Positions 10,075 to 48,347 of a stretch of 48,347 nucleotides of DNA are shown here, piece after piece. Each line of letters opens with the position of its first letter. The stretch's first letter is position 1. The DNA is taken from positions 1-48,347 of the forward strand of contig CAIYET010000399.1 of the NCBI GenBank assembly GCA_903925285.1, read 5' to 3'. Under the pieces are notes generated by a model, which was not told the origin of the DNA, made no database searches, and saw nothing but the letters and a program-made list of their open reading frames with translations. Origin of the DNA: Candidatus Hydrogenedentota bacterium. GTDB taxonomy: Bacteria > Hydrogenedentota > Hydrogenedentia > Hydrogenedentales > SLHB01. The translations under genes and the position numbers were made by a program.

Positions 10075-12044
10075 ATTCGTTGTGCCACGATCTCTGCAAT
10101 ATCCATTACTTCGACGCTTCGCGCGTCGCCCTTCGCGGCGTCGGTCAGCATCGTGATGCAGAACGGGCACGCTGCGGCAATCCGGCCTGTGCCGTTCGCC
10201 GCAAGCTCGTTGAACCGGAGGGCGTTGATCGGTTCGCCGAGATGTTCTTCGAGCCACATCCGCCCGCCGCCCGCGCCGCAGCACAAACCTTTCTCGCGTT
10301 CGCGCGTCAACGGAACGAGCCGCTGTCCGGCGGATTCGAGCACGCGGCGCGGCGCATCGTAGATTTCGTTGTATCGGCCCAGATAGCACGAGTCATGATA
10401 GGCCGCGAGGGGTGGCGGATTCTCGTTTGCATTCAGTTTCAGGGCGCCGGAGTCAATAAGTTCTTGAATGAACGTCGTGTGATGGATGACGTCGTATGAT
10501 GCGCCGAACGCGGGATACTCGTTTTTGAACGTGTTGTAGCAATGTGGGCATGTGACGAGTATACGTTTGAAGGTGTGAGACTTAAACGTTTCAATGATTT
10601 CCTGCGCGGCTGTTTGGTAGAGGTATTCGTTTCCGAGACGCCGCGCGCTCTCGCAGGTGCAACGTTCCGCGTCGCCGAGAATGGCGAAATCGATGCCCGC
10701 CGCCTTGAGAATGCGCACCACCGCTACCGAGATCTTCTTGCAGCGGTCGTCATACGAGCCGCTGCATCCTACCCAGTAGAGGACGTCCGTACTTCCCTTT
10801 TCGGCTAGGATGGGCACATCGAGTCCCGCAGCCCACGCCGTGCGGTCGTTGCGCGCGAGGCCCCACGGGTTGCCAGCGGTCTCCATGTTGCGGAACGCCG
10901 TCCCGGCGGTTTCGGGAAAATCCGATTCCATGAGGACCAAGTGGCGTCTTAGATCGGTCAGTTTGTCGACGTGCTCGATGGCCATGGGACAATGCTCGAT
11001 GCACGCGGCGCATGTCGTGCATGCCCAGATCGCGTCGGGCGCAATCGCTCCGCCGACCAGCGCCGGGGTTTCCTGTTTGCGGAGTAATACTCGTGTGTTT
11101 TCGAGCAGATGATGCTTCAGATCGACGACGAGTTTTTTGGGACTCAGCGGTTTATTGGAAACGTGCGTGGGACAGAACTCTTGGCACCGGCCGCACTCGA
11201 TGCAGGCGTAAAGGTCGAGCGTCTGCTTCCACGTGTAGTCCGCGATGCGCGATACGCCGAAAGACGTGGCGGTTTCGTCTTCGAGATCGAGTTTCGTCAT
11301 TTGCCCGCGCGGGCGGAACCGGCGGAACAGGAGATTGAATGGCCCGGCCACGAGATGGACGTGTTTCGTCGGGATAACGAGCAGCCATACCAGCACAAGA
11401 TGCATCAACCCGTCGCACCACCACACGACGTGCGCGGTTGCGGCGAGCGGTCCATGCTCGAGTTGCGCAAACCCTCGCGCGAGCCATGCCGCTACGAAAT
11501 GGAATTGCGGATTAGGGAGTTCGCCGAGTGCGATTTCGGTGGCCTTCGTCGCGAGGTAGGCGGCCATCGCGCCCGCGATGAATGTGAATACCAGGACCGA
11601 TTCGGGTGAAGGCCGCGTCAGGTTCTCCGGTCGCAAGACGTGACGTCGGAACGCAAGCCCCAGAATTCCGAAGATGATCAAGACTGCGAAGAGGTCCGCC
11701 AAGGCAGCGTAGTACAAGGCTAGCCGCGTCGATCCGAACAGGTCGAAACCCGGCAAGAAGGCGCCCACAAAGTGGTCGATCGTGTTGACGGCAAAAACGA
11801 AGAAGCCCCAAACGACGAGGAAGTGTAGCGCGCCTGCCCACGGCTTGCGAAAGACGCGACGTTGAAGGAGTACGTCCAAGGCGGCGTCGATGACGCGCCT
11901 GCCCAACTCGTTGAGGCGGTCTTCGGGTTCGCGTTTGTCCGCACGAAGCAGGAGTTGCACGAGAACGTACGCACGGTATGCGAAGTAGGCAATCGAGCTT
12001 GCTATGATGACTGCGAACAGGGCTTTTTCGGGAAGCGTCAACAT
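10071..12044 (-). CDS. Membrane ETF:quinone oxidoreductase (EMO-type Fe-S protein)
   Basis: A 657-residue fusion of a NarI-like membrane domain (about residues 5-240, several hydrophobic helices) with a heterodisulfide-reductase-like part. Cysteines 281, 284, 287 and 291 (CIECGRCQEFCP) and 342, 345, 348 and 352 (CTTCAACIEHCP) bind two 4Fe-4S clusters. Two CCG domains follow, with CPHC at 499-502 and GLCCGAGGG at 587-593. This architecture next to etfAB is the bacterial ETF:(mena)quinone oxidoreductase that moves acyl-CoA dehydrogenase electrons into the quinone pool, replacing the mitochondrial-type flavin enzyme. It starts 9 bases after the etfA stop. Confidence 0.92.
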   Translation of the reverse strand: MLTLPEKALFAVIIASSIAYFAYRAYVLVQLLLRADKREPEDRLNELGRRVIDAALDVLLQRRVFRKPWAGALHFLVVWGFFVFAVNTIDHFVGAFLPGFDLFGSTRLALYYAALADLFAVLIIFGILGLAFRRHVLRPENLTRPSPESVLVFTFIAGAMAAYLATKATEIALGELPNPQFHFVAAWLARGFAQLEHGPLAATAHVVWWCDGLMHLVLVWLLVIPTKHVHLVAGPFNLLFRRFRPRGQMTKLDLEDETATSFGVSRIADYTWKQTLDLYACIECGRCQEFCPTHVSNKPLSPKKLVVDLKHHLLENTRVLLRKQETPALVGGAIAPDAIWACTTCAACIEHCPMAIEHVDKLTDLRRHLVLMESDFPETAGTAFRNMETAGNPWGLARNDRTAWAAGLDVPILAEKGSTDVLYWVGCSGSYDDRCKKISVAVVRILKAAGIDFAILGDAERCTCESARRLGNEYLYQTAAQEIIETFKSHTFKRILVTCPHCYNTFKNEYPAFGASYDVIHHTTFIQELIDSGALKLNANENPPPLAAYHDSCYLGRYNEIYDAPRRVLESAGQRLVPLTREREKGLCCGAGGGRMWLEEHLGEPINALRFNELAANGTGRIAAACPFCITMLTDAAKGDARSVEVMDIAEIVAQRI

Positions 12045-12053
12045 GCGGTCACG

Positions 12054-13019
12054 TTATGATCCCGCACCGCCGGAGACGGCTTTCGTAAAAAGCGGAACCA
12101 CTTCAAGGAGATCGGCGACGATGCCGTAATCGCAGATCTTGAAGATCGGCGCGTTGGGGTCCTTGTTGATGGCCACGACAATCCGCGAGGTGCGCATGCC
12201 GGCCTGATGCTGGATCGCGCCCGATATGCCGCACGCCACGTACAAGTCCGGGCTGACCACTTTGCCGGTCTGGCCGACTTGGTGGTTCGAGGCGATCCAC
12301 TTGGCGTCGACCGCTGCTCGGCTCGCGCCAAGGGCCGCGCCAAGCACATCGCACAACGCCTGCAACACGGGCCACGCCTCCGGCCCGCCGATGCCGCGTC
12401 CGCCGGAGACCACGCGCTTGGCTTCGGTCAGTTCGACCGTGCCGGGGGCAGCCATGACGGCTTCTTTCAGGACGGTGCGAGCGCGCGTGGCCGATACATC
12501 GCGCTTTACGAGCGTCGGCAGAGCCGTGCCGTCGCGGACAATCGGCGTGACGTTCGGTCGCAGGGACGCCATGGCGGGCGCATTCGCTACGCGGATGTCT
12601 GTGAGCACCTTGCCTGCAAAGATGGGCTTGCGGGCCATCAAGGCGCCGTCCCACCACACCTCGATGCAGTCTTGGATCAACTCGACATCGAGCCGCGCCG
12701 CGACCGATGCGCAGAGTTCTTTGCCCAAGGCCGTGGCGGAGCCTAACACGACGGTTGCGCCCAATTCGCGAACCAAGTCCGCGACAATCGAAACGTACGC
12801 GTCGTTCGTGTAGCACGCGAGGGCCGTGTCCTCGAAACAGAACACGCGCTTGATGCCCAGACCGGCCAACTCGGCGGCCTGTTCGCCCAGCGACTCGCCG
12901 ATGTAGACCGCGTCGAGTTCGAGGCCCGCCTCGCTCGCGATCCGGTTGGCGGCCGAGGCCGTTTCCAGCGCGCATGGTTTCAACGAACCGCGTTGTTCGA
13001 GTATGGCAAGTACGCTCAT
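12054..13019 (-). CDS. etfA: Electron transfer flavoprotein, alpha subunit
   Basis: A 321-residue large ETF subunit carrying the electron-transferring FAD. The C-terminal FAD domain shows SGGRGIGGPEAWPVL, then ASNHQVGQTGKVVSPDLYVA, GISGAIQHQAGM and INKDPNAPIF, all matching the ETF-alpha family. The N-terminal domain begins MSVLAILEQRG. It lies between etfB and the quinone oxidoreductase; a large inverted repeat fills the 91-base gap to etfB, and AAAGGAA precedes the ATG. Confidence 0.96.
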   Translation of the reverse strand: MSVLAILEQRGSLKPCALETASAANRIASEAGLELDAVYIGESLGEQAAELAGLGIKRVFCFEDTALACYTNDAYVSIVADLVRELGATVVLGSATALGKELCASVAARLDVELIQDCIEVWWDGALMARKPIFAGKVLTDIRVANAPAMASLRPNVTPIVRDGTALPTLVKRDVSATRARTVLKEAVMAAPGTVELTEAKRVVSGGRGIGGPEAWPVLQALCDVLGAALGASRAAVDAKWIASNHQVGQTGKVVSPDLYVACGISGAIQHQAGMRTSRIVVAINKDPNAPIFKICDYGIVADLLEVVPLFTKAVSGGAGS

Positions 13020-13033
13020 GTCAATGTTCCTTT

Positions 13034-13108
13034 GAGGCTGTAGGAAGTGAGGCTGTAGGCTGTAGGAAGTGCGGGCCTACAGCCTACAGCCTCACTTCCT
13101 ACAGCCTC
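13034..13108. repeat. Perfect 33-bp inverted repeat built of GGCTGTA heptamers
   Basis: Left arm 13034-13066 and right arm 13076-13108 are exact reverse complements; the 9-base loop is AAGTGCGGG. The arms contain the 7-base unit GGCTGTA and an internal GGAAGTGAGG. The structure fills almost the whole gap between etfB (stop at 13111-13113) and etfA. In RNA it would form a very stable stem inside the operon message, able to affect processing, subunit ratio or termination. No U-tract follows. Confidence 0.95.
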
Positions 13109-13110
13109 GT

Positions 13111-13890
13111 TCATAGGACTTTTTCCTGTTCGCGCAAGATCCTAACGAGTTCGTGGACCTGCTGGTCGAGGTCTCCCTCGAGGACGCGGCCCAACCGGTT
13201 TTGCCGTGGTAACGACGTTGATTCGATTGTCATGCCCGGCGTCAATGCGCCTTCGGGAAGATCGAGACTGCTCAGCGCAACTTCGCGAATCTCTTTTTTC
13301 TTGGCCTTCATGATGTTGGGAAGCGTCGGATAGCGCGGGACGTTGATGCCTTTTTGCGTCGTGAACATGGCGGGGAGCGGCGTCTCGTAGACGTAATACC
13401 CGCCTTCGATTTCGCGTTGGACGGTGGCGGTCGCTCCGGCCAAGACGAGTTGCGTGATCGTCGACACGTGCGGCCAGCCCAACAATTCGGCGACGCGTTC
13501 GGGAACCTGCGAAGCGTCGTCGTCCACCGCCTGCTTACCCGCCAACACAAGGTCCGGCGCCAACTCGCGCAGCACCGCCGCGAGTGCATGCGCAACGCTA
13601 CGCGGCGTGAGATTGTTTGGGCCAGGGGGGTGTACGACCAATACACCCGAATCGGCCCCCATGGCGAGTCCCGAACGGATCACGTCCTTGGTTTCCGCCG
13701 GACCGAGGCTCAGCAACACCACATCCACACCGGACGCGTCCTTGAGTTTCACCGCCTCCTCGACGGCGTGCTCGTCGTACGGACTCATCACGTACTTCAG
13801 TCCCGCCAGGTCCACCGACTTGCCATCGTCGGCTACCTTAAAGACCGATGCCGTGTCCGGTACGCGTTTCACGAGAACGACAATTCGCAT
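13111..13890 (-). CDS. etfB: Electron transfer flavoprotein, beta subunit
   Basis: A 259-residue small ETF subunit of the adenine-nucleotide alpha-hydrolase fold. It begins MRIVVLVKRVPDTA, has SPYDEHAVEEAVKLKD and GKQAVDDDASQVPERVAELL (dehydrogenase and nucleotide contacts), and ends with the ETF-beta signature PRYPTLPNIMKAKKKEI. An AGGAGGCGAT ribosome site immediately precedes the ATG. First gene of the minus-strand operon 13890-8221. Whether this ETF bifurcates cannot be decided from these residues alone. Confidence 0.96.
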   Translation of the reverse strand: MRIVVLVKRVPDTASVFKVADDGKSVDLAGLKYVMSPYDEHAVEEAVKLKDASGVDVVLLSLGPAETKDVIRSGLAMGADSGVLVVHPPGPNNLTPRSVAHALAAVLRELAPDLVLAGKQAVDDDASQVPERVAELLGWPHVSTITQLVLAGATATVQREIEGGYYVYETPLPAMFTTQKGINVPRYPTLPNIMKAKKKEIREVALSSLDLPEGALTPGMTIESTSLPRQNRLGRVLEGDLDQQVHELVRILREQEKVL

Positions 13891-29546: not shown

Positions 29547-31241
29547 ATGAACGGCGAACCGAACGAGGCCGGATTCTCCGCCCGCGACGGGCTTCTCCTC
29601 GCGGCGGCGGTCGCGTTGGCCGTCGCCCTTCGCTGCATTCACTTATCGGATCAGTCGGTCTGGTACGACGAGTATATTACCATTCGATTCGCCGACGCTC
29701 ACAGTCTCATCGAATGTCTCCGCGAACAACTCAAGTGGGACTGGCATATGGTGCCCGTGTACCACATCCTCGAATACTTCATGGCGCACCTGTTCGGCGG
29801 CAGTATACTTGCCGTGCGTGGCCTGTCGGTACTGTTTGCCGCAGGCGCGGCGGCGCTCATCTACCTCATCGGACGCCACCTGTTCGGGACGTGGGCCGGG
29901 GCAGTCGCCGCCGCACTTTTTGCGATGTCGCCGTTTCACATCTTCCATGGCCAGGAGATTCGGCCTTATTCGCTGGTCGTGATGCTGGCGATGTTGTCGG
30001 TCTACTCCTTCGTGCGCGCCGTGTCCGGCGATGGACGGCGTTGGTGGGCGCTGCACGTCGCGGCCAACGTTCTATTGATGTGGACGCATTTGCTTGCCGC
30101 GATCATCCTGGCGCCGATGGGCCTGTTTCTGTTGTTGTTTCGTTTTCGGTCATGGCGCCGCAACGCCTTGTGGGGGGCGGTACACGTCGCGTTTCTCGTG
30201 CTGGTCGTGCTGTGGATCCACTCGCTGCAAGGCGGCATGGACAGTCCGAAGGCCACGCCGCCACCCATGCAGGCGCTCTGGCAAGATCTGTTTCATCGAG
30301 ATGCGGTGTACCTGCATTGGATGTTCGGTTCAATGCCCTTGTCCACCACCCCGGCAGAAATCGGCTCGCTTGTCCACAAAATCCTCATCGTCCAGCCGCG
30401 CTACGAGAACGCCTTGACATGGACCTTCGTGGCGGCATGCCTATTCCTGGCAACCGCTTCAGTAGGCTTCAAGTTTCAGCGGCAATCCGAAATCCAAAAT
30501 CCAAAATCTTTCCAATGGACCGTCCTTCTATTTCTTTTGTTCGCGATACCGAGCCTGCTACTTTTCGCGCTGACGTGGGCGACGCGCCTCGAACTGTTCC
30601 AAGTGCGCTTTTCCGTTTACAGTTCGCCTGCGCTGTATCTGATAGCCGGCGGCGCCGTGTCGATGCTGCAAATCCGGCGACGGCGCGTCTCTAATACGGA
30701 TCTCGGATCTCAGATCTCAGATCTCGGATCTCAAATCTCAGATCTCAAATCTCAAATCTCAGATCTCAAATCAAAGCCTTCAGCCTTCAGCCTCTTCCTA
30801 CGCGTGCCCGCTGCCGCCGCGATTGTGGGGCTTATGGGCGTGCAGACTATCCTTGGGGTGGAATTGCCGGTTCGCCACGGATATCTCGCCGCCGCCAAGG
30901 TGCTCCGCGCCGAAAAACGCCCCGATGAACCGCTCGTTGCGCACAGCCTCTATACGCAATGGCTACTCGCGTACAACCTCGGCAAACCGCCCATTCCAAC
31001 CATCGAAACGCGCGGATACGACGGGCTTTGCAACACGACGGACGAACTCGTGGGTTCCGGCAAAGCGTTTTGGGTCGTCATGACGGCCGTACCGCCCCAC
31101 TGCCCATCGCCTCCCGATATGACCGGGCTGGCCGAACACTACGCGGACTACTTAACGCAACATGGCGCTCATTTCGCTTCGCGGCGATTCCTGGGCCAGC
31201 AAAACGTCCACGTGTTCCACGTCGAAACGGTGAAGAAGTAG
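29547..31241 (+). CDS. GT39/ArnT-like membrane glycosyltransferase with in-frame heptanucleotide repeats
   Basis: A 564-residue membrane enzyme of the GT-C class. The first loop after helix 1 has SDQSVWYDEYITIRFADAHS, the acidic motif that binds the polyprenyl-phosphate sugar. About ten helices follow, e.g. GGSILAVRGLSVLFAAGAAA and GAVAAALFAMSPFHIFHGQE (the catalytic-loop region). Between two late helices a hydrophilic insertion consists of repeats of a seven-residue unit SQISDLK/G, encoded by ten tandem 7-base units; a smaller repeat lies 190 bases earlier. The start at 29547 is the first ATG fitting the family. Sugar and acceptor are not predictable. Confidence 0.85.
   Translation: MNGEPNEAGFSARDGLLLAAAVALAVALRCIHLSDQSVWYDEYITIRFADAHSLIECLREQLKWDWHMVPVYHILEYFMAHLFGGSILAVRGLSVLFAAGAAALIYLIGRHLFGTWAGAVAAALFAMSPFHIFHGQEIRPYSLVVMLAMLSVYSFVRAVSGDGRRWWALHVAANVLLMWTHLLAAIILAPMGLFLLLFRFRSWRRNALWGAVHVAFLVLVVLWIHSLQGGMDSPKATPPPMQALWQDLFHRDAVYLHWMFGSMPLSTTPAEIGSLVHKILIVQPRYENALTWTFVAACLFLATASVGFKFQRQSEIQNPKSFQWTVLLFLLFAIPSLLLFALTWATRLELFQVRFSVYSSPALYLIAGGAVSMLQIRRRRVSNTDLGSQISDLGSQISDLKSQISDLKSKPSAFSLFLRVPAAAAIVGLMGVQTILGVELPVRHGYLAAAKVLRAEKRPDEPLVAHSLYTQWLLAYNLGKPPIPTIETRGYDGLCNTTDELVGSGKAFWVVMTAVPPHCPSPPDMTGLAEHYADYLTQHGAHFASRRFLGQQNVHVFHVETVKK
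30484..30508. repeat. AATCCAA heptanucleotide array inside a gene
   Basis: Units AATCCGA, AATCCAA, AATCCAA and a partial fourth, in frame within the GT39-like gene (encoding SEIQNPKS). It is the same period as the larger array 190 bases downstream but a different unit. Confidence 0.7.
30698..30794. repeat. ATCTCAR heptanucleotide array with adjoining CCTTCAG units, inside a gene
   Basis: Ten full 7-base units varying only at the first two positions (GGATCTC, AGATCTC, AAATCTC), then a partial unit, followed at 30776 by GCCTTCA units of another heptamer family. Three heptamers make 21 bases, so the translation repeats every seven residues (SQISDLK). The insertion lies in a loop of a membrane protein, where it can be tolerated. 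Confidence 0.93.
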
Positions 31242-38640: not shown

Positions 38641-38658
38641 GCGTGCTCCTTCCCATCC

Positions 38659-38726
38659 AGGCTTCAGGCTACAGGCTTCAGGCTTCAGGAAGTGCGATGT
38701 AGCCTGAAGCCTGAAGCCTGAAGCCT
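38659..38726. repeat. GGCTTCA heptamer inverted repeat, loop GGAAGTGCGATGTAG
   Basis: Left arm 38659-38689 and right arm 38703-38726 are made of GGCTTCA and its complement TGAAGCC; the innermost 17 bases pair perfectly. The loop AAGTGCGATGTAG is nearly identical to that of the next element at 38877. Upstream of the acyl-CoA ligase start, in the 303-base gap to the RND pump gene; the spacer 38735-38876 holds no gene. Confidence 0.9.
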
Positions 38727-38876: not shown

Positions 38877-38935
38877 CCTACAGGCTTCAGGAAATGCGAT
38901 GTAGCCTGAGGCCTGAAGCCTGAAGCCTGAAGCCT
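38877..38935. repeat. GGCTTCA heptamer inverted repeat, second copy
   Basis: Short left arm 38877-38891, loop AAATGCGATGTAG, right arm of four TGAAGCC-type units 38904-38934. The RND pump stop codon follows 8 bases later (complement of 38944-38946), so on the minus strand the element sits directly after that gene. Confidence 0.88.
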
Positions 38936-42234: not shown

Positions 42235-42351
42235 GGATGAAGGATGAAAGAGGCTTTAGGCTTTAGGCTGTAGGCTTTAGGAAGTGCGTCGATCACGGGC
42301 AATTTATCCTTCTTCTTCATCCTTTAGCCTAATGCCTAATGCCTAATGCCT
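42235..42351. repeat. Compound heptamer repeat between adaptor and pump genes
   Basis: 42235-42250 has two ATGAAGG units; 42251-42281 has four GGCTTTA/GGCTGTA units; 42282-42290 is GAAGTGCGTC, the shared loop motif; and 42321-42351 has CCTTTAG and three CCTAATG units. Left and right arms are imperfect complements, so a branched hairpin in the operon mRNA is likely. The adaptor stop follows 6 bases away. Confidence 0.88.
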
Positions 42352-46487: not shown

Positions 46488-46495
46488 AAAGGAAT

Positions 46496-46550
46496 TAGGC
46501 TTTAGGCTGTAGGCTTTAGGCTGTAGGCACTGCCTACAGCCTAAAGCCTA
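46496..46550. repeat. GGCTTTA/GGCTGTA heptamer hairpin after hydG
   Basis: Left arm 46510-46528 and right arm 46532-46550 form a perfect 19-base stem with loop ACT; two further GGCTTTA/GGCTGTA units precede. It starts 8 bases past the hydG stop codon. A hairpin in this place could stabilise the 3' end of hydG mRNA or cause partial termination before the regulator gene. Confidence 0.93.
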
Positions 46551-46553
46551 GTA

Positions 46554-46628
46554 GGAATTGTGAATTATGAATGTGGAGTGGCAGACGACTTTCGCTCATG
46601 TCCATTCCTAATTACTAATTACTAATTA
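46554..46628. repeat. GAATTRT and CTAATTA heptamer arrays
   Basis: GAATTGT GAATTAT GAATGTG at 46555-46575 and CTAATTA-type units at 46608-46628 (CATTCCTAATTACTAATTAC) flank a 32-base unique stretch; the two arrays are partly complementary. They lie in the gap between hydG and the TM1266-type regulator gene. Confidence 0.75.
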
Positions 46629-46915: not shown

Positions 46916-48331
46916 ATGGATCCGGTGCACCGAACAGAGCGTGATTTGCTCGGCGAGAAAGCCGTTCCGGCGGACGCATTTTACGGCGTCCATACGGCAC
47001 GCGCGATCGAGAACTTTCCGTTGGCTGGGTGTCCGGCGCATCCCGCGCTGGTGGCGGCCTACGGCGACGTGAAGCTCGCGTGCGCGCTGACGAACCAGGC
47101 CATGGGCGTCTGGGCGGACGACGTTGCGAAGGCGGAGGCGATCATCCGCGCATGCCGTGAGATGGCAGCGGGCGATTTGACGCGACACGTCGTCGTCGAT
47201 GCGCTGCAAGGCGGCGCGGGCACGAGCCTCAATATGAACGTCAACGAGGTCGTCGCAAACCGTGCGCTCGAAATCCTCTGCGAACCACGCGGCGCGTACC
47301 ATCGCGTCTCGCCGCTCGATGACGTCAACCGCCATCAATCCACGAACGACACGTATCCGACCGCGTTGCGCCTGGCGGCGATCCGGTTGCTGCACGAACT
47401 CGAAGCGCGCGTCCTCGGATTGCAGGAGGCGTTTCAGGCCAACGAGAAGGCGTTTGCGCACGTCGTCAAAGTCGGGCGCACGGAGTTTCAAGATGCCGTG
47501 CTCACCACGCTCGGACGCGAGATGGGTGCGTACGCCGAGGCGTTCAATCGCGACCGCTGGCGCATCTACAAATGCGAGGAACGCCTACGCGTCGTCAACC
47601 TCGGCGGGACGGCGATCGGTACGGGACTGGCCGCGCCGCGGACGTACATTTTTCGCGTCGTGGAATCGTTGCGCGAGATAACGGGCCTCGGTTTCGCGCG
47701 CGCCGAGAACCTCGTCGACGCGACGCAGAACGCGGATGTATTCGTCGAGGTCTCCGGCATACTCAAGGCCTGCGCGACGTCGCTCTTCAAGGTCTGCTCG
47801 GACTTGCGGCTGTTGTCGTCGGGACCGGATGCCGGGTTCGGCGAAATCCGCCTGCCGGAACGCCAGGCCGGATCGTCCATCATGCCCGGCAAGGTCAACC
47901 CGGTCATCCCGGAAGCAGTCAGCCAGGCGGCGATGCTCGTTATGGGCCACGACGCGACGCTTGCGATGGCATGCGCATCCGGCAGTCTCGAACTCAACGC
48001 GTTCATGCCGCTCGTCGCGATGTGCCTGCTCGATAGTTGCGAACTGCTCGCGCGGTCGTGCGAGATCCTCCGCACGCATTGCGTGGAAGGCATCGAGGCC
48101 AACGAGGCGCGTTGCCGCGCACATGTCGAAGGTTCGACGGCAATCGCGACCGCCCTGTTGCCCGCGCTCGGATACGAAGGCGCGTGCAGCGCGGTACAGG
48201 AGGCCCGTGCAACCGGCAAGACGATCCGCGAAATCGTCGTCGGCAGCGGACGCCTGTGCGCAAAAGCATTCGACGAACTCGTCACGCCCGAAGCCGTCTG
48301 CCGTCTTGGCACGCAAGAAGTGAGGCTTTAG
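46916..48331 (+). CDS. aspA: Aspartate ammonia-lyase
   Basis: A 471-residue enzyme that removes ammonia from aspartate to give fumarate. The start is the ATG at 46916 (AAGGA 5 bases upstream), matching MDPVHRTERDLLGEKAVPAD. The family signature GSSIMPGKVNPVIPE begins at residue 319 with the catalytic-loop serines; VNRHQSTNDTYPTALR and VGRTEFQDAVLTTLGREMG are substrate-site motifs, and NMNVNEVVANRALEI is the helix next to the active site. Aspartate ammonia-lyase is often placed with hydEFG in anaerobes, in keeping with the neighbours here. The last codons and the stop (TAG at 48329-48331) are formed by a GGCTTTA heptamer array. Confidence 0.95.
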   Translation: MDPVHRTERDLLGEKAVPADAFYGVHTARAIENFPLAGCPAHPALVAAYGDVKLACALTNQAMGVWADDVAKAEAIIRACREMAAGDLTRHVVVDALQGGAGTSLNMNVNEVVANRALEILCEPRGAYHRVSPLDDVNRHQSTNDTYPTALRLAAIRLLHELEARVLGLQEAFQANEKAFAHVVKVGRTEFQDAVLTTLGREMGAYAEAFNRDRWRIYKCEERLRVVNLGGTAIGTGLAAPRTYIFRVVESLREITGLGFARAENLVDATQNADVFVEVSGILKACATSLFKVCSDLRLLSSGPDAGFGEIRLPERQAGSSIMPGKVNPVIPEAVSQAAMLVMGHDATLAMACASGSLELNAFMPLVAMCLLDSCELLARSCEILRTHCVEGIEANEARCRAHVEGSTAIATALLPALGYEGACSAVQEARATGKTIREIVVGSGRLCAKAFDELVTPEAVCRLGTQEVRL

Positions 48332-48347
48332 GCTTTAGGCTTTAGGC
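48316..48347. repeat. GGCTTTA heptamer array overlapping the aspA stop
   Basis: GAAGTGAGG followed by GGCTTTA units to the right edge of the window (at least three). The stop codon of the lyase is the TAG at the first CTTTAG. The leading GAAGTGAGG matches part of the inverted repeat between etfB and etfA, so the array is a family member; its right end is cut off. Confidence 0.9.

Follow-up and report, generated by a model that had tools for sequence, protein, structure and literature searches.

Tandem repeats with a seven-base unit are known from several bacterial lineages. Heptamers of the GGGNATC type in Xanthomonas and Nostoc occur genome-wide, are over-represented between genes and vary in unit number (Rehm et al. 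2015, PMC4692102), and at 70-75 sites per Xanthomonas genome two arrays form an inverted, convergent pair (PMC4692102). The TAACTGA direct repeats of the Beggiatoaceae are mostly intergenic, and their unit is common to distant lineages (MacGregor 2015, PMC4679880); read forward the unit has stops in all frames, whereas its reverse is open and is found in 11 ORFs (PMC4679880). Rickettsia palindromic elements, about 150 bp long and encoding a conserved peptide, lie in frame inside metabolic genes (reviewed in PMC10969869). The heptanucleotide tracts of Haemophilus influenzae, which occupy hmw promoters or the ORFs of hmw and TonB-receptor genes, differ between strains (PMC2651432).

The DNA considered here (the window) is the whole 48,347-nucleotide contig C399 of an 8.28-Mb assembly of 1133 contigs from a Hydrogenedentes bacterium, and it includes a predicted glycosyltransferase gene with heptamer arrays in its coding sequence. 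These arrays probably belong to a heptamer repeat that disperses genome-wide, turns over rapidly and is tolerated in genes when it is stop-free and keeps the frame.

The glycosyltransferase gene and its heptamer tracts

Three arrays lie inside this single ORF, with the following coordinates in the window.

29547-31241, plus strand: glycosyltransferase gene, PMT_2 (PF13231)/GT39-like membrane enzyme of 564 aa (Pfam, ortholog, codon score)
30484-30508, plus strand: array 1, AATCCRA x3.6, encoding QSEIQNPKS (period-7 run, translation, hydropathy)
30699-30772, plus strand: array 2, ATCTCRR x10, encoding (SQISDLK)n, residues about 384-409 (TRF, period-7 run)
30775-30793, plus strand: array 3, AGCCTTC x2.7, encoding KPSAFSL at the end of the array 2 loop (period-7 run, translation)

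The ORF matches PMT_2 in Pfam (E=1e-13), has 10 transmembrane (TM) segments by hydropathy and starts at ATG 29547 as judged by codon score and ortholog match; by sequence its product is a PMT_2/GT39-type membrane glycosyltransferase with predicted sugar transfer. A sequence search found no solved structures with a close match.

In TRF, array 2 has period 7, 10.6 copies, 88% matches and a score of 106, and a period of 21 over a nearly identical stretch scores 117. A sequence-only reading of this DNA had counted ten ATCTCAR units; ten is right for the looser unit ATCTCRR, but only eight are strictly ATCTCAR and the other two are ATCTCGG. That reading did not mention the AATCCRA unit of array 1. 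Array 3 is AGCCTTCAGCCTTCAGCCT, and the repeat region translates as TDLGSQISDLGSQISDLKSQISDLKSKPSAF. At the threshold used, 12 period-7 runs occur in the window versus 0 in 60 first-order Markov sequences of the same length modelled on it; with TRF, these runs bear out the claim that the coding sequence contains heptamer arrays. Translation and hydropathy likewise agree with the proposed seven-residue repeat (SQISDLK) in a loop between predicted helices.

Hydropathy places array 1 in a loop at residues 309-324, bounded by predicted TM segments 290-308 and 325-343, and arrays 2 and 3 in a loop at 375-413, which starts QIRRRR. Both loops are predicted, from hydropathy and the positive-inside rule, to be cytoplasmic. 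Their placement relies on hydropathy since the AlphaFold2 model, built from a two-sequence alignment, was poor (pLDDT 43).

A genome-wide family of heptamer arrays

Across 563 kb of the source genome there are 74 arrays of period 7, versus 0-7 for each other period. A larger sample of 1.10 Mb (83 contigs, many picked because they bear arrays) contains 232 period-7 arrays, and 229 kb from 40 contigs picked by number alone contain 17, which extrapolates to about 600 per genome. The 232 arrays fall in only 38 of 1170 possible unit classes, 12 of which account for 85% of arrays, and they divide into 196 that are intergenic, 19 at contig ends and 17 in predicted genes. By this census, made with the author's codon-usage ORF caller on contigs partly selected for arrays, 17 of the 213 non-end arrays are in genes (about 92% are intergenic) although 79% of bases are coding. 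Predicted genes hold far fewer heptamer arrays than their share of the sequence would give, and the array-bearing glycosyltransferase gene is no special locus, being one of hundreds of repeat sites. Other arrays of the window include the following.

1-125: related array CCTTCAT x17.9 at the contig end (TRF)
46495-46628: intergenic arrays TTAGGCT (46495-46528) and ATTACTA (46604-46628) (period-7 runs)
48323-48347: related array AGGCTTT at the other contig end (TRF)

The window begins and ends inside heptamer arrays, and ends of other contigs lie in such arrays too; the assembly is probably broken up by the repeats.

Because 7 shares no factor with 3, the three forward frames of a perfect period-7 array are either all open or all closed. 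A stop-free array can thus be read through in any frame, and only its orientation and total length are filtered. A strand test of the common units found ATCTCAR, AAACCCC, ACAGCCT and CATCCTT stop-free in the sense in which they occur in genes; one of the commonest families, AAAGCCT/AGGCTTT, has stops whichever strand is read and is not among the arrays found in genes. Coding constraint explains the orientation bias of in-gene arrays, and the bias adds no independent evidence of function.

In-frame arrays in other genes

Arrays within genes occupy loops of conserved proteins or separate their domains; one is an insertion inside a DAO domain. Proteins with in-frame arrays include a GlpD-like protein to which a diacylglycerol-kinase-like part is joined, a DsbD-like protein (array between DsbD_N and DsbD_TM), a protein with GT2 and GNAT domains (an array pair between the two), a further PMT_2 protein, which has TPRs, and a membrane protein whose array follows its beta-lactamase domain; another in-frame array separates cytidylate kinase (Cmk) from RecJ. 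Some of the 17 in-gene arrays (C495:7870, C230, C368) lie at the edge of a gene and are weak cases that may be intergenic or a mere tail. A further GT39-like gene (L067, C368:1638-3149) has a C-terminal tail that consists of an AATTCAG/ACTCCTG array.

In the Cmk-RecJ case (L125, contig C1077 of G000, positions 10745-13225, minus strand) an open frame of 857 codons runs through both genes, and an ATCTCAR plus AAACCCC array of roughly 170 bp fills the gap between them. Adjacent cmk and recJ matches on one strand are found in 22 of 24 family relatives, and in one genome, G014, an open frame of 818 codons spans both matches too. The frame in the source genome could encode one predicted fused protein, or two, as an internal GTG could start RecJ.

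A seven-residue period in a predicted cytoplasmic loop between helices might suggest selection for the heptapeptide repeat as a structural element of the glycosyltransferase, such as a cytoplasmic tether, coiled or flexible. The repeat is missing, however, from an ortholog of 63% identity, and the same peptide occurs in unrelated proteins (an ABC ATPase, the DsbD-like protein and the Cmk-RecJ frame) because of the DNA repeat that they share, and we regard such selection as very improbable.

Comparison with the ortholog and turnover among relatives

The search yielded a single true ortholog of the enzyme, from the nearest named relative at this locus, a Candidatus Hydrogenedentes MAG (L021); the two proteins align end to end at 63% identity. 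The helices that flank arrays 2 and 3 are conserved and in register, and the region of these two arrays is 27 residues longer than in the ortholog, a net in-frame gain of 81 nt. Given that the ortholog's loop is shorter by this amount and has no array 2 repeat, the array 2 tract is, as the alignment indicates, an insertion specific to the lineage and not an ancestral feature. The array 1 loop is variable in sequence and similar in length between the two. Near the ortholog, the relative's locus has a 13-bp tandem repeat, TTCGACTTGGGGG x11 (L021:2211-2349).

Presence of arrays also differs between other relatives in a comparison set of 68 genomes of the phylum. A 185-bp array in G059 is missing from the matching site in its congeners G060 and G061 (about 77% DNA identity). 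G065 and G064, two congeners of a separate genus, also differ: an ABC ATPase has GTSEISNLKSQIS, derived from an ATCTCAA array, where its 85% identical counterpart has GDLF, a net difference of 27 nt. Match counts vary strongly among genomes: ATCTCAR x4 has 165 matches in the source genome, whereas seven further genomes of the phylum have 1-6 each, and AGGCTKT x3 has 598 in the source genome, 90-99 in two species of another family and 0 in two congeners of the latter. Such counts indicate that the heptamer expansions are patchy and recent. ATCTCAR x4 is also present in 11 IMG/VR stretches of varied G+C, and the recurrence of the same units in distant lineages may reflect either transfer or convergence. 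One IMG/VR sequence listed as viral (L200, IMGVR_UViG_3300037422_000670) has eight heptamer arrays of several families, and two of these eight, with the unit TGCCATC, encode the start region of secreted-looking proteins. The source genome and its relatives show the features of genome-dispersed heptameric repeats, namely an excess of period 7, a mainly intergenic location, few units and varying presence.

Inverted pairs

Of the 213 non-end arrays, 115 lie within 400 bp of an inverted partner and 11 have a direct one, and within inverted pairs the polarity of the arms is almost always constant for a given unit family. Two such pairs lie in the window.

38658-38726: intergenic inverted pair CAGGCTT/AGCCTGA with an 8-base spacer; a further array at 38904-38935 (period-7 runs)
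42251-42351: intergenic AGGCTTT (42251-42281) with inverted GCCTAAT (42327-42351) (period-7 runs)

In these pairs and in those elsewhere in the genome (L050-L157) the spacers of intergenic inverted pairs measure 0-380 bases; the pairs are often nested with other heptamer families and could form long hairpins. Two AAACCCC pairs (L053 near C343:28061-28195 and L136 near C586:8372-8554) enclose a related spacer, GATGTCAGCGGTAC..GGTTCTGCAAGAGGCTC, which is perhaps a dispersed repeat of its own. A role of inverted pairs as terminators is not favoured, arrays being borne by 19% of convergent, 21% of divergent and 17% of co-directional regions.

The abundance of inverted partners and the fixed polarity of their arms raise the question of whether the arrays are parts of inserted mobile elements, palindromic or MITE-like, comparable to the Rickettsia elements, which often lie in frame in ORFs (PMC10969869). 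Some in-gene cases are indeed inverted pairs (C495, C343 and C968). Against this origin, the AGATCTC/AAATCTC class that includes array 2 has an inverted partner in 0 of 26 non-end arrays, and no common sequence is seen beyond the unit itself; insertion of such elements is an unlikely source of the arrays.

Frame arithmetic and phase variation

The sequence-only reading had noted that three 7-base units make 21 bases and preserve the frame, and this is confirmed by computation: a change of three units in array 2 leaves the frame intact, and a change of one or two units makes the protein stop at 455-516 of its 564 residues. It had also likened the locus to phase-variable surface genes. Slippage of a heptamer in the coding sequence could in principle toggle the glycosyltransferase on and off and vary a surface glycan, given that the unit length is no multiple of three, and heptanucleotide repeats with such a role are described in Haemophilus influenzae (PMC2651432). 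The likeness does not extend to the tract itself, which is impure (88% matches), lies late in the gene (codons 384-409 of 564, or 68-73% of the ORF) in a predicted cytoplasmic loop, and is missing from the ortholog. Contingency tracts are usually, though not universally, pure and located in the promoter or close to the gene's 5' end. The same repeat families also occur at hundreds of other sites, including the frames of housekeeping enzymes. The assembly has a single copy of the locus, a search for one that differs in unit number having found none, and the source species is the only one of its genus in the comparison set. Phase variation has its precedents, but nothing in the present data supports it, and a contingency locus seems improbable here.

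The better score of the 21-bp register in TRF also speaks against a switch, as a hint of retained frame-keeping changes. This higher-order register gives p=0.021 at the three-unit lag, a value that shifts to p=0.085 with the choice of unit cut, and array 2 does not differ significantly in this respect from arrays outside coding sequence (Fisher p=0.125). Frame-keeping duplication as the cause of the register was accordingly set aside, and the register is only a hint that such changes were retained.

A model for dispersal and tolerance

If the arrays are a dispersing, fast-turnover repeat, they would lengthen and shorten by slipped-strand mispairing, and a small stock of unit families would seed new sites through template switching or ectopic copying. 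Most arrays would persist between genes; a stop-free array that lands in a permissive loop or linker with a net length that is a multiple of three would be tolerated as a flexible heptapeptide repeat. In the glycosyltransferase the arrays fill two predicted cytoplasmic loops and lengthen one of them, most likely with little effect on catalysis and near neutrality. Length changes that break the frame would truncate the enzyme, and selection would purge them; they would not serve as a switch.

An ORF that enters a stop-free array would read on, the array being open in all three frames, so that linkers could be inserted and neighbouring genes fused. It is possible, though we hold this more tentatively, that such arrays are frame-indifferent raw material for linkers and for fusions of neighbouring genes, and that one expanding family can remodel many proteins of a single lineage; if true, the Cmk-array-RecJ frame would be an example of repeat-driven gene fusion. 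The tolerance model itself gives a neutral or selfish-looking repeat a route into conserved proteins. It also implies that heptapeptide repeats of the SQISDLK type in predicted proteins from environmental genomes are footprints of DNA repeats and not domains, and congeners that differ by whole arrays provide a system in which to measure the birth, spread and loss of repeats.

Comparison with known systems

The tracts of H. influenzae resemble those described here as 7-bp tandem repeats near or in genes, but here the host genes include housekeeping genes. Rickettsia palindromic elements share with the glycosyltransferase arrays an in-frame position within genes; array 2, in contrast, is a simple tandem repeat with no inverted partner. 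The closest published cases are the Xanthomonas/Nostoc heptamers, including their inverted pairs, and the TAACTGA repeats of the Beggiatoaceae. With the former the present arrays have in common a period of 7, a genome-wide and mostly intergenic distribution and inverted pairing, and they differ in that about a dozen common unit families replace one G-quadruplex-forming unit type and a minority of arrays lie inside conserved reading frames. As in the Beggiatoaceae, the heptamers are mainly intergenic and repeats in the open orientation enter ORFs; there, however, a single unit is involved and is found in ORFs mainly at protein ends, whereas here many units occur and are found in loops midway along proteins and in the frame that cmk and recJ share.
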